A DNA stretch of 34,100 bases. It comes from Desulfobacteraceae bacterium. GTDB taxonomy: Bacteria > Desulfobacterota > Desulfobacteria > Desulfobacterales > Desulfosalsimonadaceae. Made by a program: the position numbers and the translations under genes. Of the stretch, positions 12,997 through 33,208 are shown in pieces (within the stretch, counting starts at the first letter, position 1; each line of letters opens with the position of its first letter). The notes below the pieces were generated by a model. That model did not search any database and was not told where the DNA came from. It worked only from the letters and a program-made list of their open reading frames with translations. The DNA lies in contig JAIPDS010000020.1 in assembly GCA_021737565.1 (NCBI GenBank), positions 1-34,100 on the forward strand. The letters run 5' to 3'.

Positions 12997-13022
12997 TTTT
13001 CCTTAAAATTAATACTTTTTTC

Positions 13023-13065
13023 ATACTTTGGTCGTATTCCATTCCGTTTGGATTGCTGCTATAAA
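13023..13065 (+). promoter_or_regulatory. Promoter of lipoprotein copy 1: dyad plus -10
   Basis: The dyad ATAC-N7-GTAT (13023-13037) is followed by TATAAA (13060-13065). No good -35 stands 17 bp before this -10. The dyad centre is 30 bp upstream of the -10, about -42 from the expected start, which is where class II activators bind. The same arrangement and spacing recur at 14222-14264. Confidence 0.6.
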
Positions 13066-13075
13066 ATTAATCAAC

Positions 13076-13094
13076 AATCCGGCAGTGCCGGATT
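13076..13094 (+). promoter_or_regulatory. 5'-end hairpin of copy 1 mRNA
   Basis: AATCCGGC-AGT-GCCGGATT forms a perfect 8-bp stem with a 3-nt loop, only a few bases after the predicted transcription start (~13072). Copy 2 has a hairpin of the same stem length in the same place with a different sequence. Such 5'-terminal hairpins are known to protect mRNA from RNase E/RppH-type decay; that role here is inferred. Confidence 0.55.
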
Positions 13095-13171
13095 ATGCGC
13101 TTCAAATAATATTAAATATACGGAACAGGGGGAATAAGGAAGTGCAGAAAAAGAATTTCCGGGAGGAGGTG

Positions 13172-13240
13172 ATGCGATTTTACAAAAAACCGGCAATATG
13201 CAGGAAAGCACTGATAATCCTTAAGGTACAACCGGGTTAA
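13172..13240 (+). CDS. Possible 22-residue leader ORF
   Basis: An ATG at 13172 follows GGAGGAGGT (13162-13170), by far the best Shine-Dalgarno in this leader, and opens a 22-codon frame (MRFYKKPAICRKALIILKVQ then PG) ending at 13240, 33 bases before the lipoprotein ATG. It is basic and hydrophobic. A GTG at 13142 in the same frame would make 32 residues. The sequence is absent from unit 2. It may be a regulatory leader peptide, a small protein or chance; evidence is the SD alone. Confidence 0.3.
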   Translation: MRFYKKPAICRKALIILKVQPG

Positions 13241-13273
13241 AACCCAAACAAGCATCTATTAGGGAGATGAAAA

Positions 13274-14095
13274 ATGAAAAAAATCGGCAAACTTATTGCG
13301 ACAATGTTTATGGTGGTCGCCCTTATCGGGCTCGTGGCATGCGAGCCGTCAGGGGTTGAAACCTACGACCCGAGCACAGGTTGGCTTTCAGGTGTAAGCT
13401 CGGCCCGCATGTTCTATCCCGGCAATATTAACGAGCTGGACAATGTCGGGGCCACCACCCTGTCAAGCGGCATGGGCGGAACCAAGGAGGGTATGTACTG
13501 GCTGGCAGAACCCCTGGCAGAAGCAGGCATGATAGTTCTGGCAATAAGCGCCTCTGACAACATGACTGTGGCCGGTTATGAAAACGCCCATCAAGGCGGC
13601 CTTGATATCCTTGCAAGTGAAAACTCGGGAAGCAGCCCGATTTCAGGCAAAATCGGAAATTACGGAATTATCGGCTATTCCAAGGGCGGCGGAGCAGTGA
13701 TCAACACTGCCTCAGAACTTGGAGATGCGGTCGGAACCTGCGTGGCACTGGCTCCCTGGAGCCCGAGTCCGACATACAACCACAGTGCTGCAACCATGAT
13801 CCTTACAGGCACTGCGGATATGATCGCACCCGCTTACATGGGCGAAGGCGCCTATGACAGCCTGCCTTCCGGCGTGCCAAAGCTTTATGCGTCTATGCTT
13901 GGCGAGAGCCATATGTACTGGAACAGCCTGTCCAATACGGGCAGCGAAACAGAGTTTATCAGGGCATGGCTGAAATACTACCTGGAAGGCGACGAGTCCT
14001 CCTATGATGTATTTGCCAACGGCCCGGGATCGGGCATGACCGATTATCAATTTGACGACGGCTCCGGCGGAGGCGGCGGAGGCGGCTGCAATTAA
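13274..14095 (+). CDS. Lipoprotein alpha/beta hydrolase, cutinase/PETase-like (copy 1, 273 aa)
   Basis: An envelope-anchored serine esterase candidate. The first 22 residues are a lipoprotein signal with lipobox LVAC (Cys23). The rest follows the bacterial cutinase/PET-hydrolase pattern: MYWLAEPLAEAGMIVLAIS (~74-92), SGSSPISGKI (~118-127), nucleophile elbow GYSKG with Ser136, the APW block with Trp162 (equivalent to the wobbling Trp185 of Ideonella PETase), Asp182 in TADMIAP and His213 in GESHMYW. Lys137 replaces the usual Met after the nucleophile, and Met67 stands where PETase has oxyanion Tyr87. The protein ends in an acidic then glycine-rich tail closing with Cys-Asn. SD AGGGAG precedes the ATG. 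Ester substrate unknown; PET or cutin activity is not implied by fold alone. Near-identical paralogue next door. Confidence 0.85.
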   Translation: MKKIGKLIATMFMVVALIGLVACEPSGVETYDPSTGWLSGVSSARMFYPGNINELDNVGATTLSSGMGGTKEGMYWLAEPLAEAGMIVLAISASDNMTVAGYENAHQGGLDILASENSGSSPISGKIGNYGIIGYSKGGGAVINTASELGDAVGTCVALAPWSPSPTYNHSAATMILTGTADMIAPAYMGEGAYDSLPSGVPKLYASMLGESHMYWNSLSNTGSETEFIRAWLKYYLEGDESSYDVFANGPGSGMTDYQFDDGSGGGGGGGCN

Positions 14096-14141
14096 TCCCT
14101 TCTGCATGTTCTGTTTTTAACAAAAATGCAAAAATAACCGC

Positions 14142-14177
14142 AAAAAAGCCCTTTCATTCTGAAAGGGCTTTTTTTTA
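14142..14177 (+). terminator. Rho-independent terminator of copy 1
   Basis: AAGCCCTTTC-ATTCT-GAAAGGGCTT forms a 10-bp perfect stem with flanking A-run and a T-run of ten. A weaker TGCAT...ATGCA pairing (14104-14131) stands just before it, as also in copy 2. Confidence 0.95.
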
Positions 14178-14221
14178 TAACCTTTTTTATGTCTATAGCG
14201 CCAAAATCTACTACTTTTTTC

Positions 14222-14264
14222 ATACTTTGGTAGTATTTCATCCGGTTTGGATTACTGCTATAAA
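14222..14264 (+). promoter_or_regulatory. Promoter of lipoprotein copy 2: dyad plus -10
   Basis: ATACT-TTGGT-AGTAT (14222-14236) is a 5-bp dyad, more perfect than in copy 1, followed by TATAAA at 14259-14264. The 30-bp distance from dyad centre to -10 equals that in copy 1, and a consensus -35 is again absent. An activator-dependent promoter is likely; the activator is not in view (the neighbouring TetR operators have a different sequence). Confidence 0.6.
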
Positions 14265-14273
14265 ATTAATCAA

Positions 14274-14295
14274 GTATTCGGAGGTACCCGAATAC
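14274..14295 (+). promoter_or_regulatory. 5'-end hairpin of copy 2 mRNA
   Basis: GTATTCGG (14274-14281) pairs with CCGAATAC (14288-14295) across a 6-nt loop, a few bases after the expected start (~14271). Stem sequence differs from copy 1 but pairing is kept, implying the structure itself is under selection. Confidence 0.55.
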
Positions 14296-14341
14296 GCGTT
14301 TTACATTTAAACCCAAACAATTATTTAAAGGGGGATGGAAA

Positions 14342-15166
14342 ATGAAAAAAATCGGCAAACTTATTACAACAATGTTTATGACAGTCGCCCTTCTCGCGCT
14401 CGTGGCATGCGAGCCGTCAGGATTTGAGACCTACGACCCTAGCACAGGTTGGCTTTCAGGTGTAAGCTCGGCACGCATGTATTATCCCAGCAATATCAGC
14501 GAGCTGGACAATGTCGGGGCCACCACCCTGTCAAGCGGTATGGGCGGAACCAAGGAAGGCATGTACTGGCTGGCAGAACCCCTGGCAGAAGCAGGCATGA
14601 TTGTTCTGGCAATCAGCGCCACTGACAACCAGACTGTGCTCGGTTATGAAAACGCCCATCAAGGCGGCCTTGATATCCTTGAAAGCGAGAACTCGGGAAG
14701 CAGCCCGATTTCAGGCAAAATCGGAAATTACGGCATCATCGGCTATTCCAAGGGCGGCGGAGCAGTGATCAACACTGCCTCCGAACTTGGAGATGCGGTC
14801 ACCACATGCGTGGCCCTGGCTCCCTGGGAACCGAGTCCCACATCCAACCACAGTGCTGCAACCATGATCCTTACAGGCACCGTGGATGCAATCGCACCGG
14901 CTTACATGGGTCAAGGCGCCTATGACGACCTGCCAGCAGGCGTGCCCAAGCTGTATGCCTCCATGTCTGGCGAGGGCCATATGTACTGGAACGATTTGTC
15001 CAATACGGGCAGCGAAACAGAGTTTATCACCGCATGGCTGCAATACTACCTGGAAGGCGATGAAGCCTCCTATGATGTATTTGCCAACGGCGCGGGATCG
15101 GGCATGACCGATTATCAATTTGACGACGGTATCCCCGACGACGGCGGAGACGGCGGCTGCAATTAA
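14342..15166 (+). CDS. Lipoprotein alpha/beta hydrolase, cutinase/PETase-like (copy 2, 274 aa)
   Basis: Paralogue of the preceding gene, roughly 85-90% identical by eye. Lipobox LVAC (Cys23), Ser136 in GYSKG, Trp162, Asp182 in TVDAIAP and His213 in GEGHMYW are all kept, so both copies should be active. Changes gather in the signal peptide (A9T, V14T), around the active-site loops (S163E, Y168S, A181V, M183A, S212G) and in the C-terminal tail, where GSGGGGGGGCN becomes GIPDDGGDGGCN. Changes next to the catalytic Asp and His, and in the loop after Trp162, may give a different substrate preference. It has its own promoter, SD (AAGGGGGA) and terminator, and is followed by an Lgt-like/CPBP fusion that could act on lipoproteins. 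Confidence 0.85.
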   Translation: MKKIGKLITTMFMTVALLALVACEPSGFETYDPSTGWLSGVSSARMYYPSNISELDNVGATTLSSGMGGTKEGMYWLAEPLAEAGMIVLAISATDNQTVLGYENAHQGGLDILESENSGSSPISGKIGNYGIIGYSKGGGAVINTASELGDAVTTCVALAPWEPSPTSNHSAATMILTGTVDAIAPAYMGQGAYDDLPAGVPKLYASMSGEGHMYWNDLSNTGSETEFITAWLQYYLEGDEASYDVFANGAGSGMTDYQFDDGIPDDGGDGGCN

Positions 15167-15212
15167 TCCCTTATGCATGTTCTGTTTTTAACGGAAATGC
15201 AAAAAAAACCGC

Positions 15213-15247
15213 AAAAAAGCCCTTTCATTCTGAAGGGGCTTTTTTTA
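15213..15247 (+). terminator. Rho-independent terminator of copy 2
   Basis: AAGCCCTTTC-ATTCT-GAAGGGGCTT plus T-run. Compared with copy 1, one A is now G, giving a U-G wobble instead of U-A, so the stem stays paired. TATAAT at 15246-15251 directly follows and might serve as a -10 for the next gene, but no good -35 is seen. Confidence 0.93.
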
Positions 15248-15293: not shown

Positions 15294-16739
15294 ATGATCA
15301 AGTACCTGGAACTGGCTTCCAATTATCCGTTCGCACACACCCTTGGCGAAATCTATTACTATGGTATCAGTTTTTTTGCCGTTGTATTTTTCCTTTTTCT
15401 TGCGGCAAGAAAGCTCATTGCCCTGGGGTATCCCAAAAACCGAGTAATGCTGTTTGCCGCTGTTTTCATTCCTGCCACATGCCTGCTGGGCTACCTGGGC
15501 TCGCGCGCGGCCACGATGTTTTACCGCCCGTTTCATGAATGGAGCATCCCGTTTCTGATTGAAAACATGCTCCACAGCAGCACCCATACCTTCCATGGCG
15601 CCCTGATACTGCCGGTAATTTTCCTGATTGTTTTATGCCGTATTTTCAAATTCAGGGTTTTTGAAGGGCTTGACGCATTTTTTCTCTATGTTCCGCTGGT
15701 GCATGCACTTGGACGCTCGGCATGCTTGGTTGTGGGATGCTGCTGGGGGGCGCCCGTGCGCATGTATGTTTTTAATTCAGTAATCGGATTTCCCAATCCT
15801 GTTCCTCTTTACGCCATTGTGGTCAATGTCGCCATTTTTTTCTTTCTTCGGCGCGTTTACACTCGGGTTTATGCAGCCCCCACCCTGAGAAAGCGTTATT
15901 CTGGTACGGTTTTGGCCGGCTATCTCCTGTTATATCCGCCTGCGCGAATTATTTTCGAAGTGTTTCGCATGGAGCCGAGGATATATGAAGGCCTTACCCA
16001 GGCCCAGATTGTAATGGGCCTTTTCATGATCGTCGGAGCAGCACTGCTTCTTGTCATCAGGAGCCGCTTTTCAAAACAGGAGGCCCGGGCAGAGGCCGAA
16101 CTTACAAACCTTTTTTCCATGGCAACCCTGCTGGTTCTTCTGGTAATTGCAAATTTCATGATAATCTACTTCACCCGCATGATAAGGGTGTGGCCCTGGC
16201 CGATCCGGCCCGTGGATTCCCTGGCCGAAGCCCACAGCCGCGTGCTTTACTACATGCCCATGATGCTGATACCTGCGTTCTGCCTCTGGTGGCTCCGCAG
16301 GTTTAAGGAACCAATATTGCAATGGTTTAATTGGGAAAAATTTTCATACACTTTTTTAATCGGCCTTGCCTTAAGCGCCTATTACAGCATAAAACTGCTG
16401 GTGTTACAGGATGTGGACTTAAGAGGTCCCGCCTTCTGGCCGCCGGTGCTGATCATGAGCATAATGAACGCGCCCGCAGAAGAAATCATGTACCGGCTGG
16501 GGCTTTACAATCTTTTAAAAAGGGCCTCTTATTCAAAGTTTGCGGCAAATATTGTGCAGGCAGTTGTGTTCTCGCTTCTTCACTTCATGATAGCAGGCGC
16601 GGTGTTCGGAATTTTTGCCTTTATATACGGAGTTGTCATGGGGGTTATAACCGAGCGCAACAAAAGCATAATCCCGGCCATAATCTGCCACTTCATAATC
16701 GACTGGGGAACCATAGGCATGCCTATTCTCAGGCATTAA
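15294..16739 (+). CDS. Lgt-like membrane domain fused to CPBP protease domain (481 aa)
   Basis: A polytopic inner-membrane protein in two parts. Residues ~1-260 resemble prolipoprotein diacylglyceryl transferase (Lgt): HGALI at 101-105, HALGRSACLVVGCCWG at 137-152, NPVPLYA at 168-174 and ARIIFEVFRMEP at 217-228. The GR-G-CF-GCC-G form is that of divergent Lgt-like proteins, not housekeeping Lgt. Residues ~340-481 carry the three CPBP/Abi (Rce1-type) protease motifs: EExxxR (E396-E397, R401), FxxxH (F426-H430) and HxxxD (H466-D470). SD AGAGG lies 5 bases before the ATG. It starts 47 bases after the terminator of two lipoprotein genes, suggesting modification or processing of lipoproteins or other lipid-anchored substrates. 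That link is inferred. Confidence 0.82.
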   Translation: MIKYLELASNYPFAHTLGEIYYYGISFFAVVFFLFLAARKLIALGYPKNRVMLFAAVFIPATCLLGYLGSRAATMFYRPFHEWSIPFLIENMLHSSTHTFHGALILPVIFLIVLCRIFKFRVFEGLDAFFLYVPLVHALGRSACLVVGCCWGAPVRMYVFNSVIGFPNPVPLYAIVVNVAIFFFLRRVYTRVYAAPTLRKRYSGTVLAGYLLLYPPARIIFEVFRMEPRIYEGLTQAQIVMGLFMIVGAALLLVIRSRFSKQEARAEAELTNLFSMATLLVLLVIANFMIIYFTRMIRVWPWPIRPVDSLAEAHSRVLYYMPMMLIPAFCLWWLRRFKEPILQWFNWEKFSYTFLIGLALSAYYSIKLLVLQDVDLRGPAFWPPVLIMSIMNAPAEEIMYRLGLYNLLKRASYSKFAANIVQAVVFSLLHFMIAGAVFGIFAFIYGVVMGVITERNKSIIPAIICHFIIDWGTIGMPILRH

Positions 16740-16783: not shown

Positions 16784-17869
16784 TTGGCGGGGAAAAAGTC
16801 AAAACAGCGAATATTTGCCCTTGACGCCTTAAGAGGCCTTGCAGTGCTGCTGATGGTTTTGCAGCACATTATCTACTGGGTCTGCGGCGAACTGCAAACC
16901 AACGCCGCAATGCCCGCCCTGGGTGCGTTGGGCGGCCTGGCCGCACCGATTTTCATCGTACTGGCAGGTACGGGGGCCACTCTTGCCGTAGAAAGACACG
17001 AAAACGTTGACCGGCTCCTTGCAGGCCGGGGGCTCATGATCATAGGCTTCGGATATGTGCTTAACCTGCTTGCGCCAAACTGGTTTTCCCTTCAATCATG
17101 GTATGTATTGCACATGATCGGCTTCGGCCTGCTTACCGCCCCGGTTTTAAGAAGGATTCCCGGCCATGTGCTCGTAATCATGATGCTTGGAACCATCGCC
17201 TTGACCGGCCTTGTCCAAAGCAGCCTGAATACCCCCTTTTACATGGGCAACCATCACATGACATCCACCTCCCTGCCGGCAGGAGTGCTGCGCCTTGCCC
17301 TGGTGGAAAGCTTTTTCCCGGTTTTGCCGTGGATTGCTTTTTTCATGGCCGGCCTGCTTGCCGGAAGATGGCTGACTTCAGGGGCGTTTTCACTGCTGGT
17401 GCGCGCCTCCGGTCTTTTGTTTGCGGCCGCGGTCGCGCTCTCCGGCATCTATCTGGCTGGATTCAAATTTGCGGCCCATGAACCCTGGATACGGATTTTT
17501 AAACCAATACCCAACTTTTTTCCCGCCCTTGCACCGATTACTTTTTTTCTGCTCGCCTCGGCACTTCTATTAACATTTGTATTTATATCCTGCTGCAGCT
17601 TCCGGACGGCGTCCAATCCGGGGCACGCCGGCCATGGCTCAAACATCCTGGTCTGCCTGGGAAGATGTTCGCTTACCATTCTCATGGTGCATATACCGCT
17701 TATAAGAGAGCCGGTTGTGCGCCTGGACATCTGGCGAACCCTGGGAGTCCCGCAGACCCTCGCGGTCACCATGTCTTTTTTGATCCTTTTTTCCCTTGCA
17801 GCAGTGCTGTGGAGCAGGATTAACTTCAAGTACGGCGCCGAATGGCTGCTTCGCAGGGCCTTTCCTTAA
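16784..17869 (+). CDS. DUF1624/acyltransferase-like polytopic membrane protein (361 aa)
   Basis: A membrane protein with about ten predicted TM helices. The start RIFALDALRGLAVLLMVLQHI (residues 9-29) is the signature of membrane acyltransferases and DUF1624/DUF418 (heparan-alpha-glucosaminide acetyltransferase-like) proteins; the D-x-x-R-G motif and the helix-1 histidine (His28) are present. The late LGRCSLTILMVHIPLI block (His303-like) is likewise typical. It probably transfers an acyl group to a lipid, glycan or surface molecule, but the acceptor cannot be told. The start is TTG at 16784, 44 bases after the Lgt/CPBP gene with a weak SD (AGGAT), so co-transcription is likely. It converges on the SpeE-like gene with 6 bases between stops. 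Confidence 0.75.
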   Translation: MAGKKSKQRIFALDALRGLAVLLMVLQHIIYWVCGELQTNAAMPALGALGGLAAPIFIVLAGTGATLAVERHENVDRLLAGRGLMIIGFGYVLNLLAPNWFSLQSWYVLHMIGFGLLTAPVLRRIPGHVLVIMMLGTIALTGLVQSSLNTPFYMGNHHMTSTSLPAGVLRLALVESFFPVLPWIAFFMAGLLAGRWLTSGAFSLLVRASGLLFAAAVALSGIYLAGFKFAAHEPWIRIFKPIPNFFPALAPITFFLLASALLLTFVFISCCSFRTASNPGHAGHGSNILVCLGRCSLTILMVHIPLIREPVVRLDIWRTLGVPQTLAVTMSFLILFSLAAVLWSRINFKYGAEWLLRRAFP

Positions 17870-17875: not shown

Positions 17876-20800
17876 TTAACGGATATGCCTTTTTAACTGG
17901 CTTTCTATCCGGGCGGAAAGATCTTTTCTACCGGAATCCCTTGCTTTTTTAAGCGCCAAAGCGGCTGTCTTTTCGGCCTCGGCCGGGCGGCCGGCCGCAT
18001 TATATGCAATGGCAAGCGTGGTAAGCATTACAGGGCTTTTCTCGCCTGTAAGGGAGCATGCTTTTTTTGCATTCTCAACAGCGCTTTTGGGATCTCTTAA
18101 GCTTCGCTCTTTTACCGTGGCCTGTATCCATGCCAGTATGTTTAAAGCCTGTGCCATGTCAGGCTTCAGGCGTACTGCTTCTCTAAGATGGTCGGCGGCC
18201 TCTGCAAGCCGGTTCTGTCTTGTTAAAATATATCCCGCGTAATAGTGGGATTCGGCAATGTCGGGCCGCACCCGCAATGTTTCCTTAAAATAGAAAAGGG
18301 CATTATCCAGGCTGTTTTTTTTAAGCTGGGCAAAAGCCATGTTGCCCATGGCCTTTATAAAGCCCGGGCGCAGCTCAATGACCTTTTTAAAATGGGATAT
18401 GGCCGAATCCATATCTCCTTTCCGGTAAAGCAGAAAACCAAGGTCGTTGTGAACCCTTGCATCCCCCGGGTCCAGGGCAAGAGCCTTTTGGTAATGCTCT
18501 GCAGCTTCCCCTGTTCTTCCGGCCTCATCCAGAAGAGAAGCCAGGTAGCTGCGGGCCGGGGCCTTGTATTTTATTTCAGGGAGCTTGCTTTTAATTGAAT
18601 CTATCTGGATTGCGTGCAGGCGACGGGCAATCTTTCTGTCTTTAACCAGATTGAGATCCATTGGATTCTCCCTGCAGTAGTCGGCCAGAAGCGCCTCGAA
18701 CCTTTTCTTCTGCTCCGAATCAGCACGGGAAAGATCAACCATGCCTTTAAAGGGCGAATATACTGACAGGGCAAACTCCGCAAAATCAATCTGATCCTCG
18801 ACCGATTCACGTATGCGCCCGGCGGCCGAGGCGGTATCGGGACTTAGCCACGCCCTGTCCTTTAATTTTTCCAGAAGCACCTCCTGGGTTTCTTTGCCGC
18901 GATACATCAGCCTTGGAGCCGAATACTCAAGAAGTGGCAGGTCTTCAGTATTGATCGGGCCCGGGCCGAAAAGCCTTGAAAGATCCTCTGACACTATCAA
19001 CCGAAGCAAAAGCTTTGGCCTGGCAAGCTCGATATTGGAGGACCGCCGGGCGTAATCAATATTATCACCTGCCTGCTCCCAGTTTAGCCCGGCTTCGTCC
19101 TTGAAACCGACAAAAAGAAAATCCTTTGCCAGTCCGCCCGGATCACATGAAACCAGGATGCTGTCCGGAAACACCTCTGCAAAGCTCCGCCCGATAAGCG
19201 CAAACGTGGGCCAGTCCATCTGATAGCAATGAAACCACTGCACATAAATTCCGTTATCTTCAAGACTTTTTTTTGCAGTTTCAAAAAAGTCCCGGGTAAA
19301 CAAAGACGCCATGCCCGCCATCCATGGATTGGAAGGCTCTGAGATTATCACGTCATAGCTGGTGCGCGACAGGGTCAGATGCGCCAGGGCGTCCTGGAGA
19401 ATTGCCCGCGTGCGCCGGTTGTCAAGCACATTGTTGTTCCACTGCGAAAAAAACCGGGCGGCCTCAAACACGCACTCGTTTATATCTATTACATCCAGCC
19501 GTTCTACAGGATAGTGCAACACCTCGCCCGCGGTTACACCGCTTGCCAGCCCCAGAACCATAACCTTTTCAGGGTCTTTGGCAAAAAGCATGGGGAAATG
19601 TGCCAAAAGCGTCTGGGTGTTCATATCCCCCCGGGAAGAAGCATCCATCTTGCCGCTGTTGGCCATGGAATACTCGGCCTTTCCAAAAGGGCCGGGGTAT
19701 TTTAAAACTGTTGTAAAACCTCCTATACCTTCCCCGTAATAAACCAGCTCCCCCCTTTCAACATCTGCAAGAATCTGAGCGCCGGAAACAAAAGATTGCA
19801 GCCATCCTGTTCCCTGGATCGCCTGCTTTACCGCCTCTGCTTCTTCAAAACGATGGTACTTGCCGGTTGCAAGAACATGACGGTTCCAGGCGGGATAAAC
19901 CAAGCACATAAAAAGCACTCCCGCTGCAAACACGGCGGCCGGCACGGCCCGGCGCGGCGAAAACCGCATTCCGATTTTTACCGCAAACAAGACTGCCGCA
20001 AGAGCAGCTGCAACCTGCATTCCTATGACAATTTTCAGCCCGGTTTCCATGCCGACCAGGGGCATGAGAATAAAGCCGGCAAAAAACGCACCAAAGACAT
20101 CACCGATCGTGTTAAAGGCATAAATTACGCCTATGGACCTTCCAACACCCTCTATGGACTGCGTATGGATCTTTGCCACCAGGGGGAAGGCGGCGCCGAA
20201 AAAAAGTGTGGGCAGAACCATGAATCCGAAAAGAACCAGGGCCTCCACACCGGCAAGCAGCCCGAACTGGTCCCTGAAGGCGTATATGAGTTTGGCGAAA
20301 AAGAGCTGGCTGTTGCCGAAGATGTGGCTTATTACAAGTGCTGAAAAAGCGGCAAGGACCTGGGTTATTATCAGAAGGCTAAAAGCATTGACTGTTTTGT
20401 CGGCCCACCTGCCGAAAATCACGTTGCCCAAAGCCAGCCCGGTAATAAAAGTGACCAGTACAATGGTGAACGAATAAGTCGTCGGCCCCACAACAAGCCC
20501 CAAAAGCCTGGTCCAGAAAACCTCGCAAACCATGGCACAAAAGCCCGAGACAAGAAAAACAGCCAGCGCGGTATTGGCCGTCCTCCTGGGATACGTGTTT
20601 GCAGGCAGGGAAATTTTCTTGACAGAAGAGCCGCCCCGCTTGCCAGCCCCGTTTTCTTTTTCTTTTGCCCCGGAGTCGGACCGGCCTGTGGCGGCCGCTG
20701 GCCTTATTAAGATGCAGGTCAGGCCTATGGTGGCGTTTATTAAAACCGCAACCAGCATGGAGCCCCAGATCCCCAGGGTACTTATCATCCAGAAGCCGCA

Positions 20801-21352
20801 AACCAGGGCGCCAAGGGCCGCACCAAAAGTGTTAAGACCGTAGAGCCGGCCGGCATGGGTGCCCAGATGCGCAAGGCTGCTGACATAAAAACGGCAAAGA
20901 ATGGGCAGGGTCGCACCCATGCATATGGTGGGAAAGCCCAGCAGTAAAAGCGCGCCTGCAAATACGAAAAAATTGAACACAAGGGTGTGCTCATAAAAAT
21001 TATTGTATAAAATGCCGTATATTCCGCCGGACAACAGGAGCAGCGCGGGCACAAAAAAAGCATAAACCGCCGTGGCAATTTCCAAAACACCGTAAACCCT
21101 GACCAGCCCGATTCCGTGCCAACGGCTTGACATACGCCCTGCAACATATCCACCCAGTCCCAGCCCGGCCATAAAGACCACCAGAATGGCGCTTACGGCA
21201 AAGGGGGCTGCGCCTACCACCCTGGAAATCAGACGCATCCAGATAATCTGATAGATCAGGGCAGTCATACCGGAAAGAAAAAAACAGACCAGTATGAATA
21301 CAGCCAGCCGCCGGGCGGGAGCCTGCAATTGATTATCGCCTTTTGATCTCAT
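17876..21352 (-). CDS. Membrane transporter-like / spermidine-synthase-like / TPR fusion (1158 aa)
   Basis: A three-part protein. Residues ~15-490 hold two repeats of a six- to seven-helix membrane module (FLSGMTALIYQIIWMRLISRVVG at 25-47; FLVSGFCAMVCEVFWTRLLGLVVG at 266-289), split by a basic cytosolic linker (220-260). Residues ~520-760 form a Rossmann methyltransferase fold of spermidine-synthase type: VLGLASGVTAGEVL at 599-612, DVIDINECVFEAA at 620-632, and YDVIISEPSNPWMAG at 666-680, where Glu672 stands in place of the usual catalytic Asp. Residues ~930-1150 are TPR repeats. Proteins of this layout are common and mostly uncharacterised in Desulfobacterota; ordinary aminopropyl transfer is doubtful given the changed residue and membrane part. 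It starts at ATG with a weak SD, divergent from gspF. Confidence 0.85.
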   Translation of the reverse strand: MRSKGDNQLQAPARRLAVFILVCFFLSGMTALIYQIIWMRLISRVVGAAPFAVSAILVVFMAGLGLGGYVAGRMSSRWHGIGLVRVYGVLEIATAVYAFFVPALLLLSGGIYGILYNNFYEHTLVFNFFVFAGALLLLGFPTICMGATLPILCRFYVSSLAHLGTHAGRLYGLNTFGAALGALVCGFWMISTLGIWGSMLVAVLINATIGLTCILIRPAAATGRSDSGAKEKENGAGKRGGSSVKKISLPANTYPRRTANTALAVFLVSGFCAMVCEVFWTRLLGLVVGPTTYSFTIVLVTFITGLALGNVIFGRWADKTVNAFSLLIITQVLAAFSALVISHIFGNSQLFFAKLIYAFRDQFGLLAGVEALVLFGFMVLPTLFFGAAFPLVAKIHTQSIEGVGRSIGVIYAFNTIGDVFGAFFAGFILMPLVGMETGLKIVIGMQVAAALAAVLFAVKIGMRFSPRRAVPAAVFAAGVLFMCLVYPAWNRHVLATGKYHRFEEAEAVKQAIQGTGWLQSFVSGAQILADVERGELVYYGEGIGGFTTVLKYPGPFGKAEYSMANSGKMDASSRGDMNTQTLLAHFPMLFAKDPEKVMVLGLASGVTAGEVLHYPVERLDVIDINECVFEAARFFSQWNNNVLDNRRTRAILQDALAHLTLSRTSYDVIISEPSNPWMAGMASLFTRDFFETAKKSLEDNGIYVQWFHCYQMDWPTFALIGRSFAEVFPDSILVSCDPGGLAKDFLFVGFKDEAGLNWEQAGDNIDYARRSSNIELARPKLLLRLIVSEDLSRLFGPGPINTEDLPLLEYSAPRLMYRGKETQEVLLEKLKDRAWLSPDTASAAGRIRESVEDQIDFAEFALSVYSPFKGMVDLSRADSEQKKRFEALLADYCRENPMDLNLVKDRKIARRLHAIQIDSIKSKLPEIKYKAPARSYLASLLDEAGRTGEAAEHYQKALALDPGDARVHNDLGFLLYRKGDMDSAISHFKKVIELRPGFIKAMGNMAFAQLKKNSLDNALFYFKETLRVRPDIAESHYYAGYILTRQNRLAEAADHLREAVRLKPDMAQALNILAWIQATVKERSLRDPKSAVENAKKACSLTGEKSPVMLTTLAIAYNAAGRPAEAEKTAALALKKARDSGRKDLSARIESQLKRHIR

Positions 21353-21636: not shown

Positions 21637-21652
21637 TTTGGGAAAACGATTC

Positions 21653-22882
21653 ATGCCTATTTACGAGTATAGCGCCTTAAACGCCAAGGGCAAAACAGTA
21701 ACAGACATCATAGACGCGGAAAGTACCGCGGCCGCGAGGCAGAAACTGCGCGCCTCCCGGATATATCCCATATCAATAAAAGAAGTATATGAAACAGGCC
21801 GGCAGGCCGGACATGATATCTCCGGGTGGTTCAAACCTTTTTCCAACAGGGTCAGTGCCGGCGAGCTCTCCATAATGACCCGGCAGCTTGCAACTTTGCT
21901 CGGCGCCGGCTTTCCTCTGGTTTCGGCTGTATATACGCTTATTCCGCAGACGCGCTCCCAGAAATTAAGACAGGCCCTTGCCCATATCAAGGACGCCATA
22001 GAAGAAGGAAGCAGCTTTGCCGCGGCCCTTAGCCAATATCCTGACATTTTCTCGGAAATATACGTAAACATGGTCGCCTCGGGGGAATCTTCCGGGACCC
22101 TGGAACTGGTTTTAAACAGGCTGGCCGATATCACCGAAAGGCAGCAGGCCATTACAAAAAGCGTGCAATCGGCAATTGCCTACCCCATACTCATGTTTTT
22201 TGTGGGCACACTGATTTTGATCTTTCTGCTGACCTATATTGTGCCCAGCATCATTTCAATATTCGAAGACATGGATCAGGCCCTGCCCCTGCCGACCCTG
22301 GTACTGATAAACGTAAGCGAGTTTTTAAGAAACGGATGGTGGGTAATACTGCTCGCACTGGTCGCAGTAATCCTGGTGCTAAGGCGGATAAAAAAAACAG
22401 ACCGGGGAGGCTATGGGTTTGACAGGCTTGCCTTGAAACTCCCTCTTGCCGGGGAGCTAAGGACCAAGCTGGCAACGGCACGCTTTGCCCGCACCCTGGG
22501 TTCTCTGCTTGAAAACGGGGTATCCCTGATGGCGGCCCTGGACATAGTCAGAAATATAGTTGGAAACCGCGTTATTGCAGACGCAGTGAAAAACGCCGCC
22601 CTTAACGTGGAAAAAGGCGGGGCGCTTGCAAAATCGCTTGAAGCATCCAGCGTTTTCCCTCATATATCCATCCAGATGATCCAGGTGGGTGAAAACAGCG
22701 GAGAGCTTGAAGCCATGCTGGCAAAGATTGCCGACATATACGAAAACGAGGTGGAATCCACGGTATCGGCCATGACCGCGCTGCTCGAACCCCTGATAAT
22801 ACTTTTCATGGGCGTGGTTGTGGGATTTATAGTAATTTCAATATGCCTGCCGATTTTTGAAATGAACCAGATGGTGGGCTAA
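21653..22882 (+). CDS. gspF: Type II secretion inner-membrane platform protein GspF (409 aa)
   Basis: The polytopic platform protein of the type II secretion system, which links GspE to pseudopilus assembly. The start MPIYEYSALNAKGKTVTDIIDAES is typical of GspF. Two copies of the cytosolic T2SSF domain lie at ~60-185 (LSIMTRQLATLLGAGFPLVSAV) and ~265-390 (FARTLGSLLENGVSLMAALDIV), each followed by TM segments (YPILMFFVGTLILIFLLTYIVP; PLIILFMGVVVGFIVISICLPIF). It ends NQMVG as expected. I use ATG 21653 rather than TTG 21638; GGGA lies 9 bases before the ATG. Unlike most T2SS loci it is on the opposite strand to gspE and converges on the PilT-like gene with 13 bases between stops. Confidence 0.95.
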   Translation: MPIYEYSALNAKGKTVTDIIDAESTAAARQKLRASRIYPISIKEVYETGRQAGHDISGWFKPFSNRVSAGELSIMTRQLATLLGAGFPLVSAVYTLIPQTRSQKLRQALAHIKDAIEEGSSFAAALSQYPDIFSEIYVNMVASGESSGTLELVLNRLADITERQQAITKSVQSAIAYPILMFFVGTLILIFLLTYIVPSIISIFEDMDQALPLPTLVLINVSEFLRNGWWVILLALVAVILVLRRIKKTDRGGYGFDRLALKLPLAGELRTKLATARFARTLGSLLENGVSLMAALDIVRNIVGNRVIADAVKNAALNVEKGGALAKSLEASSVFPHISIQMIQVGENSGELEAMLAKIADIYENEVESTVSAMTALLEPLIILFMGVVVGFIVISICLPIFEMNQMVG

Positions 22883-22895
22883 AAACACCTGCTGC

Positions 22896-24500
22896 TTACC
22901 TTGTCCTCGCAAGGTCGCTGTAATAAAGAGCGTCACTGGCATATATCATACCGTCTTCCAGCGTAATGCGCCCCTTTTTGCAAAGCCTTGCAAGCTCGAT
23001 ATCAATAGACGTGAAATCCTCTGTTCCCTGCTGCATCTGGCTGCGTATCTGGTGGGTTTTGCCCTCCCGTATTATATTTTTTACTCTTGATGAGTTTATC
23101 AACCTCTCCATTGCAAGTACTCTTCCGGAACCGTCCTTTAAAGGCACAAGCCTCTGGGCCACCGAAACTATCATGGCATCTGCGAGCATCATTCGGATCA
23201 GGTGCTGCCTGTGGGGCTCAAACCTCTGTATGATATTTTCGATTGCAACCGTTGAATTGGCTGCATGCATTGTGGTCATTACCAGGTGTCCCGTATACGA
23301 AGCCTGAAGAGCTATCTCAAAGCTTTCCCTGTCGCGCATCTCGCCTATTACAATCACGTCGGGCGCCTGCCTCAGCACCGACTTCAGACCTGAGTGAAAG
23401 CTCGCAGTGTCCCTTCCGACCTCGCGCTGGCTTATGTTGCTCTTTTTGTGCTTGTGCAGATACTCCACGGGATCTTCAAGAGAAATAATGTTGCTTCGCC
23501 TGTTGTTGTTGATCATGTCCACCATTGCATAAAGGCTGGTTGATTTGCCGTGCCCGGCCGGACCGCTTACCATTATGAGTCCGGTGGGCCTGAGCGCGAA
23601 ATCCATGAACCAGGACGGAAGATTCAGCTCGGAGGCCGGAGGTATGCTTTCTATAATCGGCCGGATTGCAAGGGCCACCGAGCCCCGCTGCCTGTAGGCA
23701 TTTACCCTGAACCTGCTTATATCCGGATACGTGACCGAAAAATCCACTTCACTCTGCTTTTCAAAAACGCTCCATACCTCACCGGGCATCATCTCTCTTG
23801 CAAAGCTTTCGCAGTCGGCAGGTGTAAGCGGGGGTGCGGCAAGCCGTCTGAGGGTATTTGCAATCCTGAGGGAAGGCGGGGCCCCCGCGGTCAGGATAAG
23901 ATCGCTTGCATTGACATCCGCTGCTTTACTTAAAAGGGAGTCAATTTTGATACCCGACCTGCCATCCTCTTCTGCAAAAGCCGATCTGCTGCGCTCAATG
24001 TCTTTTCCGCTGATTTTTCCCGAAGGTTCCGCCATAAGCGCTTCAATGGCGGTATCCATCATGAACGAGGGTACCACAACAGGATCTATCTTTTTGCCGA
24101 GCCTGAACTCAAGTTCGCTTATCGTCCTCAAATCCCCCGGATCAACCATTGCCAGGGTGAGCCTGCCGCTCTTGGTTGCCAGGGGAAGAATTTTTTTCTC
24201 CTTTATCCTTTCAGGCGCTATCATGGCGGCAACCCCGGGATCTATATCCATGTCAAAAAGATTTACCGCGGGCACGCCGAACTGCGAGGAAAGAAAATCC
24301 AGGAGCTGCTCCATGGTCAAATACCCGAGCTCCAGAAGTATGGACCCTATATGCTCATCCACCTGGCTCTGGCGTTTTAAGGCCTCGTCAAGCTGGGCCT
24401 GGCTGATAAGTCCGCCTGTCACCAGCAATTCGCCCATGCGTTTTTTGGCACCCTGGCCCGAAGATTTTCCGGGACCCTTTTGATCAGAACTGCCGTTCAC
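22896..24500 (-). CDS. PilT-like secretion ATPase with GspE/MshE-type N-terminus (534 aa)
   Basis: A hexameric AAA+-like secretion ATPase. Residues ~20-160 resemble the MshEN/GspE N-terminal domain (MGELLVTGGLISQAQLDEAL; FGVPAVNLFDMDID). The rest is PilT-like: LLSKAADVNASDLILTAGAPPSLR (~189-212), Walker A GPAGHGKST (313-321), LEDPVEYLH, Walker B DVIVIGEMRD with Glu387, the TMHAANS loop, and the PilT C-terminal mark NIIREGKTHQI (475-485). PilT normally has GPTGSGKST, so two P-loop positions are changed (T to A, S to H), though Lys319 and Ser/Thr remain. No zinc tetracysteine of GspE is present. It is last in the gsp operon, 85 bases after the TPR gene, suggesting a retraction or regulatory motor for the pseudopilus. 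Confidence 0.85.
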   Translation of the reverse strand: MNGSSDQKGPGKSSGQGAKKRMGELLVTGGLISQAQLDEALKRQSQVDEHIGSILLELGYLTMEQLLDFLSSQFGVPAVNLFDMDIDPGVAAMIAPERIKEKKILPLATKSGRLTLAMVDPGDLRTISELEFRLGKKIDPVVVPSFMMDTAIEALMAEPSGKISGKDIERSRSAFAEEDGRSGIKIDSLLSKAADVNASDLILTAGAPPSLRIANTLRRLAAPPLTPADCESFAREMMPGEVWSVFEKQSEVDFSVTYPDISRFRVNAYRQRGSVALAIRPIIESIPPASELNLPSWFMDFALRPTGLIMVSGPAGHGKSTSLYAMVDMINNNRRSNIISLEDPVEYLHKHKKSNISQREVGRDTASFHSGLKSVLRQAPDVIVIGEMRDRESFEIALQASYTGHLVMTTMHAANSTVAIENIIQRFEPHRQHLIRMMLADAMIVSVAQRLVPLKDGSGRVLAMERLINSSRVKNIIREGKTHQIRSQMQQGTEDFTSIDIELARLCKKGRITLEDGMIYASDALYYSDLARTR

Positions 24501-24585
24501 TTTCCTTTACCCGATAAAATATCCGCAAAAATTGACCATTAACAAGCATCCGCCTTCCGCGCCTTTATACCACAACGGCAATAAC

Positions 24586-25572
24586 CTAAAATCGCCAGTG
24601 AAAGGAAACCATAACAGAATCGGATCCGATTCCCAAGGAAAATCCGGGTTCTCTCCTGCTGCCAATATGCTGCTGAATATAATCGCTGTAACTCTTACGG
24701 TTGTATTTATGAGCGCTGGATACGGCCCCGATCGCCCCTCCTCCGTAAAATCCGGCTCCGGCCAGGCCAACAAGGCCGCCCATCGCATACATGTCATTGT
24801 CAAATGCCTCCAGGGACGCAGCAGCAAGCCCTATGGTAAGAAAAAAAGCCGTTGCCGCCTCCCTGTACCGGCCACAGTAAAGATAGCCTCCTCCCGGCAC
24901 TATGGAAAACATGCCTGCAAGAAACGGACTTTTGGCAGGGATCCTTCCCGGATCATCCATGTCCCTTAAGATCTGTTCAACATTGTATTTCCGCCTGTTT
25001 CCGGGAGTTATTTTATCAAAGGACAAACGTGCGCCCGACAAATCGCCGGATTCCAGCTTAAGCCTGCCGCTTTCAAACCTTGCCCTGTCCCGGTCATCCT
25101 GATCCGGGGCACGCACGGCTATGGCCTCCAGAACATTAACAGCCTCCCTGATATTGTTGCGCCCGGCATGGCACCGGCTTATCATAAACATTGCCTCCAC
25201 TGCGCGCTCCGAGCTCGGAAATTGCTTTACCACTGATTCAAAGGCATTTATTGCGTCCCCGTACCTCGGGATCTGAAAATATGCCATGCCGGCCTTAAAT
25301 CCGGCTTCGGCGGCCCTTGGATGGTCGGGGAAAAAATGGGAGAACCGTTTAAATTCGATGGCGGCGGCAAGATAATCACCGCTTTTATAATTTTTTTCTG
25401 CAAATTCATACAAAGACTCGGGCGAAATGCAGAATTTTCCTGATTCGGAGTCCGCCCCCTGTACGTCCGCGGACATGCATACCAGAAAAAATACTGCCGC
25501 AACCATGCAGCCCCATGCAGCCGGGCCGGGGCATGGTTTTCGCGCGGCCCCTGTGCTAACTCTGCGTAACAC
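24586..25572 (-). CDS. TPR protein with C-terminal hydrophobic domain, T2SS-linked (328 aa)
   Basis: An envelope protein of unknown function. A signal peptide (~1-40, hydrophobic core MVAAVFFLVCMSADVQGA) is followed by TPR repeats at ~50-190 of the BamD/YbgF type (YEFAEKNYKSGDYLAAAIEFKRF; AGMAYFQIPRYGDAINAFESVV; AMFMISRCHAGRNNIREAVNVL). A glycine-rich hydrophobic stretch at ~218-290 (PFLAGMFSIVPGGGYLYCGRYREAATAFF) resembles DUF5683/TM2-like modules. It ends SVMVSFHWRF, an alternating strand with C-terminal Phe as in outer-membrane proteins. The GTG start overlaps the end of gspE by 17 bases with GAGGA 8 bases upstream, so translation is probably coupled. A pilotin- or assembly-type role for secretin is possible but unproven. 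Confidence 0.75.
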   Translation of the reverse strand: MLRRVSTGAARKPCPGPAAWGCMVAAVFFLVCMSADVQGADSESGKFCISPESLYEFAEKNYKSGDYLAAAIEFKRFSHFFPDHPRAAEAGFKAGMAYFQIPRYGDAINAFESVVKQFPSSERAVEAMFMISRCHAGRNNIREAVNVLEAIAVRAPDQDDRDRARFESGRLKLESGDLSGARLSFDKITPGNRRKYNVEQILRDMDDPGRIPAKSPFLAGMFSIVPGGGYLYCGRYREAATAFFLTIGLAAASLEAFDNDMYAMGGLVGLAGAGFYGGGAIGAVSSAHKYNRKSYSDYIQQHIGSRREPGFSLGIGSDSVMVSFHWRF

Positions 25573-27271
25573 GCAGCACTTCCTCTATTGTGGTTACCCC
25601 GTTTAACACCTTGGAAAGCCCGTCCTGATAAAGGGTTGTCATGCCCAGCCTGACAGCCTCGTTTTTAATACGATGCGAGTCATAGGTCCTTAATACCAGG
25701 TTCTGGAGCGAGGATTTAAGCTCCAGGATCTCGTAAATGCCCACCCTGCCGCGGTAGCCGCTGTTAAAACACTTGCTGCATCCCGCCGCCCGGTAAAGAA
25801 CCGGCTTTTGCTTGTCCCCGGGCTCAACGCCGAGACGCTCAAGGGTGGCGGCATCCGGCTCATAAGGCTCTTTGCACTCCTCGCACAGCACCCTGACCAA
25901 ACGCTGGGCAATTACAGCTATCACGGACGATGAAATAAGAAATGGCTCAATGCCAAGATCCACCAGGCGGGTAATCGCGCTTGCCGAATCATTGGTGTGC
26001 AGGGTGGAAAATACCAGATGCCCGGTCAGTGCTGACTGAACCCCTATTTCCGCTGTTTCAAGATCTCTCATCTCGCCTATAAGTATCACGTCCGGGTCCT
26101 GGCGTACTATAGAACGAAGTCCCCTTGCAAACGTCAATTCTATCTTGGGATTTACCTGGATCTGGTTGACTCCTCTTAACTGGTATTCCACCGGATCTTC
26201 AATGGTAATAATATTAATGTCCGGGGAATTAAGACTCGAAAGCACCGCATAAAGGGTTGTTGTCTTACCGCTGCCGGTAGGACCCGTTACAAGGATTATA
26301 CCGTGGGAATAGCTGATAAGCCTTTTTATCTGGTCAAGCTTTGCCTGGGCCAGACCCAGCTCCGAGAGTCCGAACAGGGCCCCTGACTTGTTTAAAAGAC
26401 GCATTACCACGCGCTCGCCATACTGAATCGGAATGCTTGATACGCGGATATCAATATTCTGGTTGCCTATTTTCACCTCAAAACGGCCGTCCTGCGGCAG
26501 CCGCTTTTCTGCTATATTCATCCTGGACATGACCTTGATGCGCGAAACCAGGGAGGACTGCATCCATTTTGGCGGGGTGAGCATATCATAAAGAATACCG
26601 TCAACACGGTACCGGATCTTAAGACTGTACTGCTCCGGCTCTATGTGAATATCACTTGCCCCGATCTTCACTGACTGGGAAATCACGTGATTGACCAGTT
26701 TGATTATGGGAGCATCGCTTGTATCATCAAGCAGGTCCGCGGTTTCTTCTATCTCGCTTATTATGTCCCCGCCGTTTTCCTCCATATCGGCAACGAGCTG
26801 CTCGGCGGTATCCCTGCTGCTGTCATAGGCAAGATTTACAATGGAATAAATAGCATCGCGCGTGGAAAGCACAAGATCAAAGTCATTGATCTCAAGGAGC
26901 TGAACCAGGTCATCGAGTTGCTGAAACGCCGTGGGATCATTTATGGCGATTTTTGTGCGCCCGTTGTCTTCAGAGCCCTGCCTGCCGGATTCAGATCGTA
27001 TGGGCACCATGGCGTATTTTTTTAAAAAACCTATGGGAACCTTTCTGGCAAACCAGGTATCAAGATTTTCCAGGGGGAGCTTCTGCCAGAACGGCAGATC
27101 ATAAATGCGGGCATAGGCCTGAAGCAGCTGGTGCTCGGAAACAATCTTTTTTTTAAGCAGAACCTCTGAAAGGGGCAGGTTCTGCTCAGAGCGCATTTTT
27201 TTTGCCTCTTCAAGCTCGTTTTCATCCACCCCGAACTCTTTTGTAAGTATATCTGAAAGACCCTGCCTCAT
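25556..27271 (-). CDS. gspE: Type II secretion ATPase GspE (571 aa)
   Basis: The cytosolic motor of the type II secretion system. The N-terminal MshEN-like domain (~1-150; SDILTKEFGVDENELEEA) is followed by the ATPase core: Walker A GPTGSGKTT (330-338), Asp box IEDPVEYQLRGVNQIQVN, Walker B DVILIGEMRDLETAEIG (~395-410), and the His box TGHLVFSTLHTNDS. The zinc-binding tetracysteine expected of GspE is complete (C463, C466, C498, C501). The length is standard. The ATG overlaps the gspD stop (ATGA), and the 3' end overlaps the TPR gene, so gspD-gspE-TPR are translationally coupled. Confidence 0.97.
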   Translation of the reverse strand: MRQGLSDILTKEFGVDENELEEAKKMRSEQNLPLSEVLLKKKIVSEHQLLQAYARIYDLPFWQKLPLENLDTWFARKVPIGFLKKYAMVPIRSESGRQGSEDNGRTKIAINDPTAFQQLDDLVQLLEINDFDLVLSTRDAIYSIVNLAYDSSRDTAEQLVADMEENGGDIISEIEETADLLDDTSDAPIIKLVNHVISQSVKIGASDIHIEPEQYSLKIRYRVDGILYDMLTPPKWMQSSLVSRIKVMSRMNIAEKRLPQDGRFEVKIGNQNIDIRVSSIPIQYGERVVMRLLNKSGALFGLSELGLAQAKLDQIKRLISYSHGIILVTGPTGSGKTTTLYAVLSSLNSPDINIITIEDPVEYQLRGVNQIQVNPKIELTFARGLRSIVRQDPDVILIGEMRDLETAEIGVQSALTGHLVFSTLHTNDSASAITRLVDLGIEPFLISSSVIAVIAQRLVRVLCEECKEPYEPDAATLERLGVEPGDKQKPVLYRAAGCSKCFNSGYRGRVGIYEILELKSSLQNLVLRTYDSHRIKNEAVRLGMTTLYQDGLSKVLNGVTTIEEVLRVTQS

Positions 27272-29091
27272 TTTTCCTGCTCTTTTTTATCATCTCCGGG
27301 CCGCCCGTAAAGCTTAATCGAGTCCTCCTCCGGCACGACCCTCATTTCTCCCTTTCTTTCCTCATAAAAATCCGAGGCGTCCTGCGGCCGGGACATCACC
27401 CTGGGGGTTAAAAACACAAACAGGTTTGTCTCATCATTTCCGGTGGCAGAAGACTTAAACAGCCAGCCGAAAAAAGGTATGCTCCCCAGGCACGGAACCC
27501 TATACTCGGTTTTTGAAAGACTTTCATCTATCAGCCCTCCTATAACCACTGTATTCCTGTCATTTACCTCCACGGTTTTATCAATGGTGCGCTTCAGGGT
27601 TGTAGGCTGGAACTGGTCCGTGGTGCTCTCAAGCTTTGTTACCTCCTGGAGAAGATCCAGGCGGATTTTTCCGTCCTTGTTTATCTGCGGAGTTATCTCG
27701 AGCAATATGCCGACATCCTTATACTCGTAATTGCTGTATTCGGTATCTCCGCTGGCAGCCCGTGTAAGATACGGTATATTCTTTCCAACACGGATCTTGG
27801 CTGTTTTATTGTCTGTTGTCAATATCTGGGGGGTGGAAAGGATCTGCACATCCCTGTCTTTCTGATAGGCCTGTATCAGGGCGCGAATAGTGGGAAACTG
27901 AATATCTCCAACGGTGATGTTTTCGCCGAGTATGCCCATTGAAAATCCGGGGGGTAAAAGAGCTCCGCCGGTTACGCTCGCCTCTGGAACCGCATAGTTG
28001 TATCCCGGATCTCCTCCCATGGTTCCCCCTGAAAATCCACCGCCGTAAACCCCTTCGCGGTCATCATGGCTTGCCTCGCCCCCGGCTATCCATTCCGCCC
28101 CCAGTCGGAATGATTTATCCTTGCTGACCTCCATGATCAGGCATTCTATATATACCATTGCCCGGGGACCGTCCAGTTTTTCAATTACCGACTTCAGGAT
28201 ATCATAGTCGTCCTTTTCCGCCCGGATTATCAGGCTGTTGGTTGCCGCGTCAGCGGCGATCTTGACATTTTCAGATACTATGGGCGCTTCTTTTTTTCCT
28301 GCTTCCCCTGATTTTGCTGATTCTCTTGTCGGCAGCTCCTGGAGAACACCCACCAGCTCTTCGGCCGAAGCGTTTTCAAGATAATAAACGTGTATCTTTT
28401 CTTTGCCCCTGGGCACTTCCTTGTCCAGCATCTTAACAAGCTCCTGAACGCGCTCCAAATCGGGCTTGCTTCCCTGCACCACCAGCAGGTTTGTCCGCTT
28501 CTCGGCAACTGCCACTATCTGTTCATCCTGGCGGCGCTCTCCTTTTCTCCCTGCATTAAACAGGGAGTCAATGATTCTGACCATTTCCTCGGCATCTGCA
28601 TGCGCCACCGGGATCACGGATATCTCCCTTCCCGTGCCCTCAACGTCTATTGTATCTACAATGCGCATAAGACGCCTGATATTGGAATACACATCGGTTA
28701 TAATCAACATGCCAGTGGGCGGATAGGATATAATCACCGCGCTCTTTGAAACAAGAGGCGAAAAAATCTTTTTTATTTCATTCGGATCTGCATAATCAAG
28801 CGGGAGAATCTGGGTTACTATCCTGTCTCCTTCTTCATCCGCCTCGCGCTTCAGCTTGGTCTCAATACTCATGCTGCGTGCATTAGGAGCGGGGACAACC
28901 TTTGTAACGCTGCCGGCATCAACAGTTGCATAGCCGTGAACATCGAGCACGGATTCAAAAACCCGGTATGCCTCCCCGACTGTTATCTCGCTCGGAGATA
29001 CGACCGTGATCTTGCCCTTTACCCTGGGGTCCACTATAAAATTGCGGCCTGTAAGCTCGCTTATAAACTTGATAAACACGTTTATATCCAC
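27268..29091 (-). CDS. gspD: Type II secretin GspD, N-terminus cut by a stop codon (607 aa from GTG)
   Basis: The outer-membrane secretin that forms the exit channel. N0/N1-N3 ring domains (~1-300; e.g. FIKFISELTGRNFIVDPRVKGKITVVSPSEITVGEAYRVFESVL) precede the secretin barrel domain, which ends with VPCLGSIPFFGWLFKSSATGNDETNLFVFLTPRV. The C-terminus is charged (GDDKKEQEK). The frame is open further upstream and encodes VSIDFNDV, part of the N0 domain, and a complete signal peptide from 29274, but a TAA at 29224-29226 interrupts it. The only start left after that stop is the GTG at 29091, giving a product without signal peptide and lacking the first N0 strand, which should not be exported. So the gene is either freshly inactivated, read through, or misread by one base. 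Confidence 0.93.
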   Translation of the reverse strand: MDINVFIKFISELTGRNFIVDPRVKGKITVVSPSEITVGEAYRVFESVLDVHGYATVDAGSVTKVVPAPNARSMSIETKLKREADEEGDRIVTQILPLDYADPNEIKKIFSPLVSKSAVIISYPPTGMLIITDVYSNIRRLMRIVDTIDVEGTGREISVIPVAHADAEEMVRIIDSLFNAGRKGERRQDEQIVAVAEKRTNLLVVQGSKPDLERVQELVKMLDKEVPRGKEKIHVYYLENASAEELVGVLQELPTRESAKSGEAGKKEAPIVSENVKIAADAATNSLIIRAEKDDYDILKSVIEKLDGPRAMVYIECLIMEVSKDKSFRLGAEWIAGGEASHDDREGVYGGGFSGGTMGGDPGYNYAVPEASVTGGALLPPGFSMGILGENITVGDIQFPTIRALIQAYQKDRDVQILSTPQILTTDNKTAKIRVGKNIPYLTRAASGDTEYSNYEYKDVGILLEITPQINKDGKIRLDLLQEVTKLESTTDQFQPTTLKRTIDKTVEVNDRNTVVIGGLIDESLSKTEYRVPCLGSIPFFGWLFKSSATGNDETNLFVFLTPRVMSRPQDASDFYEERKGEMRVVPEEDSIKLYGRPGDDKKEQEK

Positions 29092-29274: not shown

Positions 29275-29287
29275 AATCACCCGCGGT

Positions 29288-30175: not shown

Positions 30176-30189
30176 TGCCCAATGTCCGG

Positions 30190-31053: not shown

Positions 31054-31093
31054 CTCCGCCCGCCTCTATCTTCAAATATATCTGCAATACGGA

Positions 31094-33108: not shown

Positions 33109-33208
33109 GGATGACCCGCTTGTTTTAAAATATGAAATTCCTCCCGGTAAAAATAAATCCAGGCAGAACTTTCCGCTCGCTGCCCGGACCTGTTCGGAAA
33201 GTATCTAT

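Follow-up and report, generated by a model that had tools for sequence, protein, structure and literature searches.

Tandem PETase-family lipoproteins with a C-terminal GGCN tail, encoded beside an Lgt-like/CPBP fusion gene in a Desulfobacteraceae bacterium

The window analysed here, i.e. the whole stretch of 34,100 nucleotides from contig JAIPDS010000020.1 of a Desulfobacteraceae bacterium (assembly GCA_021737565.1), carries two neighbouring genes for PETase-family lipoproteins (copies A and B), followed by a gene fusing an Lgt-like domain to a CPBP protease domain and by a set of type II secretion (T2SS) genes (Table 1). Pairwise alignment of A and B revealed 89% identity across their whole length, and they are the sole two copies in the 2.65-Mb draft genome. 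Beyond the coding sequences, the repeat unit takes in sequence upstream and a terminator-like hairpin downstream (listed at 15213-15245 on the + strand and at 14142-14174 on the - strand), pointing to a tandem duplication of the entire transcription unit. The interval 13013-15247, to which a previous sequence-only reading had assigned the pair, likewise covers the duplicated upstream region and the terminators, beyond the two ORFs. The dN/dS between the copies was 0.28, and both are therefore under purifying selection.

Table 1 Features of the tandem PETase-family locus, in window positions.
Feature	Position	Strand	Remarks
Copy A upstream region matching that of copy B (~14210-14310)	13003..13096	+	Ends in inverted repeat; alignment, folds
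PETase-family lipoprotein copy A	13274..14095	+	273 aa; Ser136/Asp182/His213 triad, lipobox Cys23, C-terminus ...GSGGGGGGGCN
Copy A signal peptide with lipobox LVAC	13274..13342	+	Cys23 codon 13340-13342; copy B counterpart 14342-14410
Copy A Gly-rich linker and GGCN-stop tail	14051..14095	+	Copy B counterpart ~15119-15166
Terminator-like hairpin with T run after copy A	14142..14174	+	Duplicated after copy B at 15213-15245
PETase-family lipoprotein copy B	14342..15166	+	274 aa; 89% identical to copy A; C-terminus ...PDDGGDGGCN
Fusion of Lgt-like domain (PF01790) and Rce1-like CPBP protease domain (PF02517)	15294..16739	+	Candidate tail-handling enzyme
HGSNAT_cat/acyltransferase-like membrane protein	16784..17869	+	Conserved fusion neighbour; same gene order in L021, L099, L186, L188
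Fused MFS/spermidine-synthase-like/TPR protein	17876..21352	-	Convergent; conserved neighbour of PETase and fusion
Type II secretion genes (GspF, E, D, C, N, L, G, others)	21638..33706	.	Possible export route; putative functional link

The leaders of the two genes showed some features of their own. Their inverted repeats, ATCCGGCA/TGCCGGAT at 13073-13092 (copy A) and GTATTCGG/CCGAATAC at 14272-14295 (copy B), differ in their letters and are identical in their pairing, and both fold (z -1.6 and -2.8); they could represent an RNA hairpin in which compensatory substitutions preserve the pairing, or else an operator for the TetR-type gene (11544-12116). About 120 bases at 13105-13239 are unique to the copy A leader and contain a possible 22-codon ORF (MRFYKKPAICRKALIILKVQPG), preceded by a strong ribosome-binding-like sequence, GGGAGGAGG.

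Membership of the PETase/bacterial-cutinase family, proposed in the sequence-only reading, was borne out. The Pfam PETase model PF12740 (curated gathering cut-off of 28 bits) was the sole Pfam match of both copies, scoring 79.5 bits (E 3.5e-22) for A and 76.9 bits (E 2.3e-21) for B, while the match to the NCBIfam BHET hydrolase model fell below its cut-off. Both copies aligned with solved PET hydrolases; the best match among solved structures was GlacPETase (8x6v), with E values of 3e-29 from the single sequence and 4e-34 from the profile and about 31% identity, followed by type II and then by type I PET hydrolases and cutinases. In a maximum-likelihood tree, A and B were sisters within a clade from the same order (18 rows; support 99/97), separate from the solved enzymes. 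Their nearest relatives were encoded in MAGs named Syntrophobacterales SV1-B6.3 and delta proteobacterium MLS_D, names that make an anaerobic lineage, as previously suggested, plausible. No matches at E 1e-15 were found in other genomes among 395 sampled across the phylum, denser sampling of the class yielded ten genomes with a PETase match, and no relatives were found in viral contigs. A and B are a confirmed, if slightly unusual, new pair within a known enzyme family; lipid-anchored relatives of plastic- or cutin-degrading enzymes encoded side by side are not in themselves unusual.

The catalytic residues proposed earlier proved well placed. Ser136, Asp182, His213 and Trp162 of both copies aligned with Ser160, Asp206, His237 and Trp185 of IsPETase, and the Ser-Asp-His triad was unvarying in all the rows of the alignment, which comprised the pair, 38 relatives and four solved enzymes. 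The bacterial cutinase/PET-hydrolase pattern claimed for the pair therefore held for the triad and Trp162, but not for two positions of subsite I or for the C-terminal disulfide. Subsite I of IsPETase is made up of Tyr87, Met161, Trp185 and Ile208 (PMC5785972), and the aligned residues in A and B were Met67, Lys137, Trp162 and Ile184. Met67, which stands in place of the aromatic-clamp Tyr/Phe, was confined to the A/B clade; together with the common C-terminal GGCN tail and the adjoining fusion, it had gone unnoticed in the previous reading. Lys137, to which that reading had drawn attention, does follow the nucleophile in both copies, but it is common among relatives of the same order and hence not special to the pair. 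A and B matched neither the subsite I of types I, IIa and IIb (Tyr/Phe, Met, Trp, Ile) nor the Thr, Gln and Tyr reported for type III PETases, which lack the clamp (PMC12442448). With Met67 replacing the clamp aromatic, they fit none of the PETase types I-III. They share with the type III enzyme HaloPETase1 the absence of a Tyr/Phe-Trp clamp and of Met at x2, but have Met, Lys and Trp with GYSKG instead of Thr, Gln and Tyr with GHSQG. The C-terminal disulfide conserved in PET hydrolases, which we take to be Cys273-Cys289 in IsPETase, lacks its first cysteine in A and B, whose only three cysteines (23, in the lipobox, 156 and 272) include none at the Cys273 position. In summary, the pair has in common with GlacPETase and other known PF12740 members the full-length domain match, the aligned triad, Gly-x-Ser-x-Gly, Ile at IsPETase position 208 and Trp at 185, and departs from them in Met67, Lys137, the missing disulfide partner, the N-terminal lipid anchor and the GGCN tail. 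A subsite I unlike that of any described PETase type widens the sequence space available for polyesterase work.

Structural models added little to these alignments. AlphaFold models of full-length and trimmed copy A, built from only four sequences, reached pLDDT values of 50.8 and 41.0, too poor for the geometry of the triad. In a Foldseek search with the better, still poor model (pLDDT 50.8), GlacPETase ranked at the top, at an rmsd of 6-7 Å, followed by PE-H and IsPETase; rmsd values were mostly 6-8 Å.

A and B seem to us very unlikely to be genuine, plastic-adapted PET hydrolases, despite their PF12740 membership and GlacPETase being their nearest solved relative. Their Met67 and Lys137 correspond to Tyr87 and Met161 of IsPETase, positions at which the Y87A and M161A substitutions left 5% and 52%, respectively, of the IsPETase activity on BHET (PMC5785972). 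On the other hand, type III HaloPETase1 still degrades PET with the clamp absent (PMC12442448), so that some PET activity of A and B is conceivable. The spread of the family, diversified across one order and with many paralogues in genomes that also encode plant-polymer enzymes, suggests instead a natural substrate, and PET activity is unlikely to be the role of these proteins.

The sequence-only reading had also interpreted the differences between the copies as a diversification of substrate range. It was literally right in placing differences beside Asp182, His213 and Trp162 (S163E, A181V, M183A and S212G), but the clustering was weak: of the 23 substitutions in the mature domain, 4 were no more than 2 residues away from one of these sites, where 1.5 would be expected (P = 0.045, with the sites picked post hoc). 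Given this marginal value and the dN/dS of 0.28, neither a diversified substrate range nor positive selection on the active-site loops was supported.

Both ends of the proteins carry distinctive signals. The lipid anchor claimed earlier was corroborated by the lipobox LVAC-EPSG, with Cys23, in both copies (assigned by matching to the pattern [LVI][ASTVI][GAS]C). At the opposite end, A and B finish in GGCN. Near orthologues keep the lipobox and end in GGCN, GGCD or SGCD after a flexible linker. A pattern search for GGC[ND]-stop in the own genome returned three proteins, namely A, B and one GDSL-type lipoprotein. The latter, a GDSL/SGNH-type protein encoded on contig C73 (L032:754-1515), combines an N-terminal Cys-Glu-Pro lipobox with a C-terminal GGCN, as in A and B.

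The tail was far more frequent in g60, a genus of a different family within the same order and rich in PETase paralogues. Its genomes G180, G335 and G370 gave 15, 14 and 14 GGC[ND]-stop matches, compared with 4, 0 and 2 in the reversed control. The matches fetched were, bar one chance match (L159), genuine C-termini of secreted proteins; a Ser/Gly-rich linker was present in nearly all and a lipobox in most. In these three genomes the tail is carried by more than 30 secreted proteins from unrelated families; the tail-bearing families include PL11 rhamnogalacturonan lyase, GH5, GH43, GDSL, PAF-AH-like, DUF3237, PHB-depolymerase-like and PETase proteins. When S-G-G-C-X-stop was searched in the same genomes with X left free, X was Asn in 24 of the 26 matches. 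This preference, together with the presence of the tail on unrelated secreted families, defines a motif that crosses families. A class-wide search for GGCN-stop showed clear enrichment in G180, G335 and G370 only, with few matches elsewhere, at about chance level; those in other families (G190, G388) were not ORF ends and were discarded as chance matches. Since the tail is frequent in g60 only and the search of the own genome found just three tail proteins, it may have been inherited with the genes. None of the NCBIfam and Pfam models covers the GGCN tail, and no description of it was found in the literature covered, subscription papers aside. A strict tail on unrelated secreted polymer-degrading enzymes seems to be undescribed.

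The tail varies among PETase paralogues. L045_332, L048 and L005 lack GGC[ND]. At L041 (G370) and L045 (G335), both at 1390-2343, the Gly-rich tail ends in GGGGGGC-AIAVITDF or AIAILSGF rather than in GGCN, and at L091 (G180; 6449-12128) a cluster of four PETase-like lipoprotein genes adjoins the fusion, each product ending in a Ser-rich linker and GCN.

One explanation for the tail cysteine is that it forms only a disulfide, either intramolecular (Cys156-Cys272) or with a surface partner, resembling the capping of the chain end in known PETases. The window clade conserves both Cys156 and Cys272, a cysteine stands 12 residues ahead of the tail cysteine in the GDSL protein, and known PETases do possess a conserved disulfide (PMC5785972). 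However, other PETase clades retain the tail cysteine without Cys156, the long Ser/Gly/Thr linkers that precede it are unlike a packed disulfide, and the Asn following it in 24 of 26 cases would be left unexplained. The number of other cysteines in tail proteins was odd about as frequently as even, and therefore did not discriminate between a free and a paired tail cysteine. On balance, we regard a disulfide-only role as possible but doubtful.

We consider it likely that A and B are a duplicated PF12740 serine ester hydrolase whose linker-GGC[N/D] tail acts as a shared tethering or maturation signal. This reading builds on direct results, namely the sequence family, the aligned triad, the lipobox, the tail and the occurrence of the tail on unrelated secreted enzymes. 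After tandem duplication, both proteins would hydrolyse esters and be exported through the T2SS, and the near-terminal tail cysteine would be the point of a C-terminal modification or surface attachment. The small number of tail proteins found in the own genome and the PETase paralogues without the tail count against this reading. Judging from the sequences, natural polyesters are probably their substrates, a guess prompted by the fact that tail-bearing enzymes are mostly plant-polymer enzymes.

The gene adjoining the pair offers a candidate for handling such tails. In both the window and G030 the fusion immediately follows PETase genes; the distance is 0.9 kb in G180 and about 3 kb in G102. 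The order PETase-fusion-acyltransferase-MFS/spermidine synthase was also found in G030 (L021) and, with one extra gene, in G102 (L099); G180 (L091) has PETase, fusion and acyltransferase in order, G335 (L186) has fusion, acyltransferase and MFS/spermidine synthase in order, and L007, L008 and G151 combine PETase with MFS/spermidine synthase, some of the neighbours in relatives having been identified by their characteristic ends and lengths, without a family search. Since canonical Lgt genes are located elsewhere, the fusion represents a paralogue distinct from them. It matched the broader Pfam LGT domain, but scored only 51.8 bits against the Lgt equivalog model, whose cut-off is 334. Instead of the canonical Lgt signature GRxGNFxNxE it has GRSACLVVGCCWG, in which the Asn of GRxGNF is missing; the Lgt-like motifs HTFH/HTYH, GR, GCCWG and E-x2-R are conserved in relatives. 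The CPBP part contains EEIMYR (EExxxR), H and HFIID (HxxxD/N), all kept in relatives, and resembles MrtS and MrtJ, below cut-off. Transmembrane-type CTERM clients were absent from the sampled contigs of the own genome, and one was found in G102. There, an M4-protease-like protein (1168 aa; L098:12969-16475), encoded some 2.5 kb from a PETase gene, carries the classical tail GGGGGGGC-MISSLNPTP-transmembrane-CRR.

These features make the fusion an attractive candidate handler of GGC[ND] tails. A specific version of this idea is that the fusion lipidates and processes the tail cysteine, in a transmembrane-free relative of MYXO-CTERM, Synerg-CTERM and JDVT-CTERM sorting that would leave a lipid at both protein ends. 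The myxosortase model postulates just such an enzyme: in it, an Lgt-like transferase yet to be identified would lipidate the C-terminal cysteine ahead of CPBP protease cleavage and T2SS export (PMC11980579). Also in favour are the proximity of the fusion to PETase genes in the window, G030, G180 and G102, its status as an Lgt paralogue separate from canonical Lgt, its conserved Lgt-like and CPBP motifs, the resemblance, though below cut-off, to MrtS/MrtJ, and the classical GGGGGGGC-TM-RR tail of the G102 protein near a PETase gene. Yet the GGC[ND] tails have neither the transmembrane helix nor the Arg cluster of the known systems, three tail proteins (PL11 twice, GH5) lack a lipobox for inner-membrane retention, the Lgt-like domain lacks the Asn of the canonical GRxGNF, the fusion and PETase genes of G335 and G151 are not adjacent, and the fusion is present too in G004 and G005, genomes without GGCN excess. 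Lipidation by the fusion is accordingly, in our opinion, unlikely. The broader proposal, that linker-GGC[ND]-stop is a new transmembrane-free anchoring signal of Desulfobacterota secretomes with the fusion as its dedicated Cys-lipidating enzyme, we judge rather improbable; the fusion would in that case lipidate the tail cysteine and might trim the last residue. If true, it would constitute a bacterial counterpart of CAAX processing, supplying the transferase postulated for MYXO-CTERM-type sorting, and A and B would be a client pair encoded beside their own processing enzyme. The recurrent PETase/fusion neighbourhood offers, in any case, a candidate open to testing for the lipid transferase that C-terminal cysteine sorting is postulated to require.

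Compared with the MYXO-CTERM, Synerg-CTERM and JDVT-CTERM systems (MrtX, MrtS, MrtJ), the window shares the linker followed by a near-C-terminal cysteine and a nearby CPBP gene with EExxxR and T2SS genes. In those systems, however, a transmembrane helix and an Arg-rich end come after the cysteine, whereas the A and B chains stop one residue past it, and the window CPBP domain is fused to an Lgt-like domain. For the tethered-hydrolase reading, a further parallel is found in surface lipoproteins of the T2SS such as the pullulanase PulA, since A and B are likewise lipobox proteins from a genome with T2SS and GspN, the latter being part of the window cluster and reported to be necessary for surface transport of T2SS lipoproteins (PMC12802150). 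Unlike PulA, A and B add the C-terminal Cys tail, and their T2SS export route is putative. In G016, G032 and G011, the Lgt-like and CPBP halves are separate adjacent genes, all keeping GCCWG where canonical Lgt has GNFxNxE, and in some relatives with such split genes they adjoin a gene named ceramidase-like from the look of its sequence.
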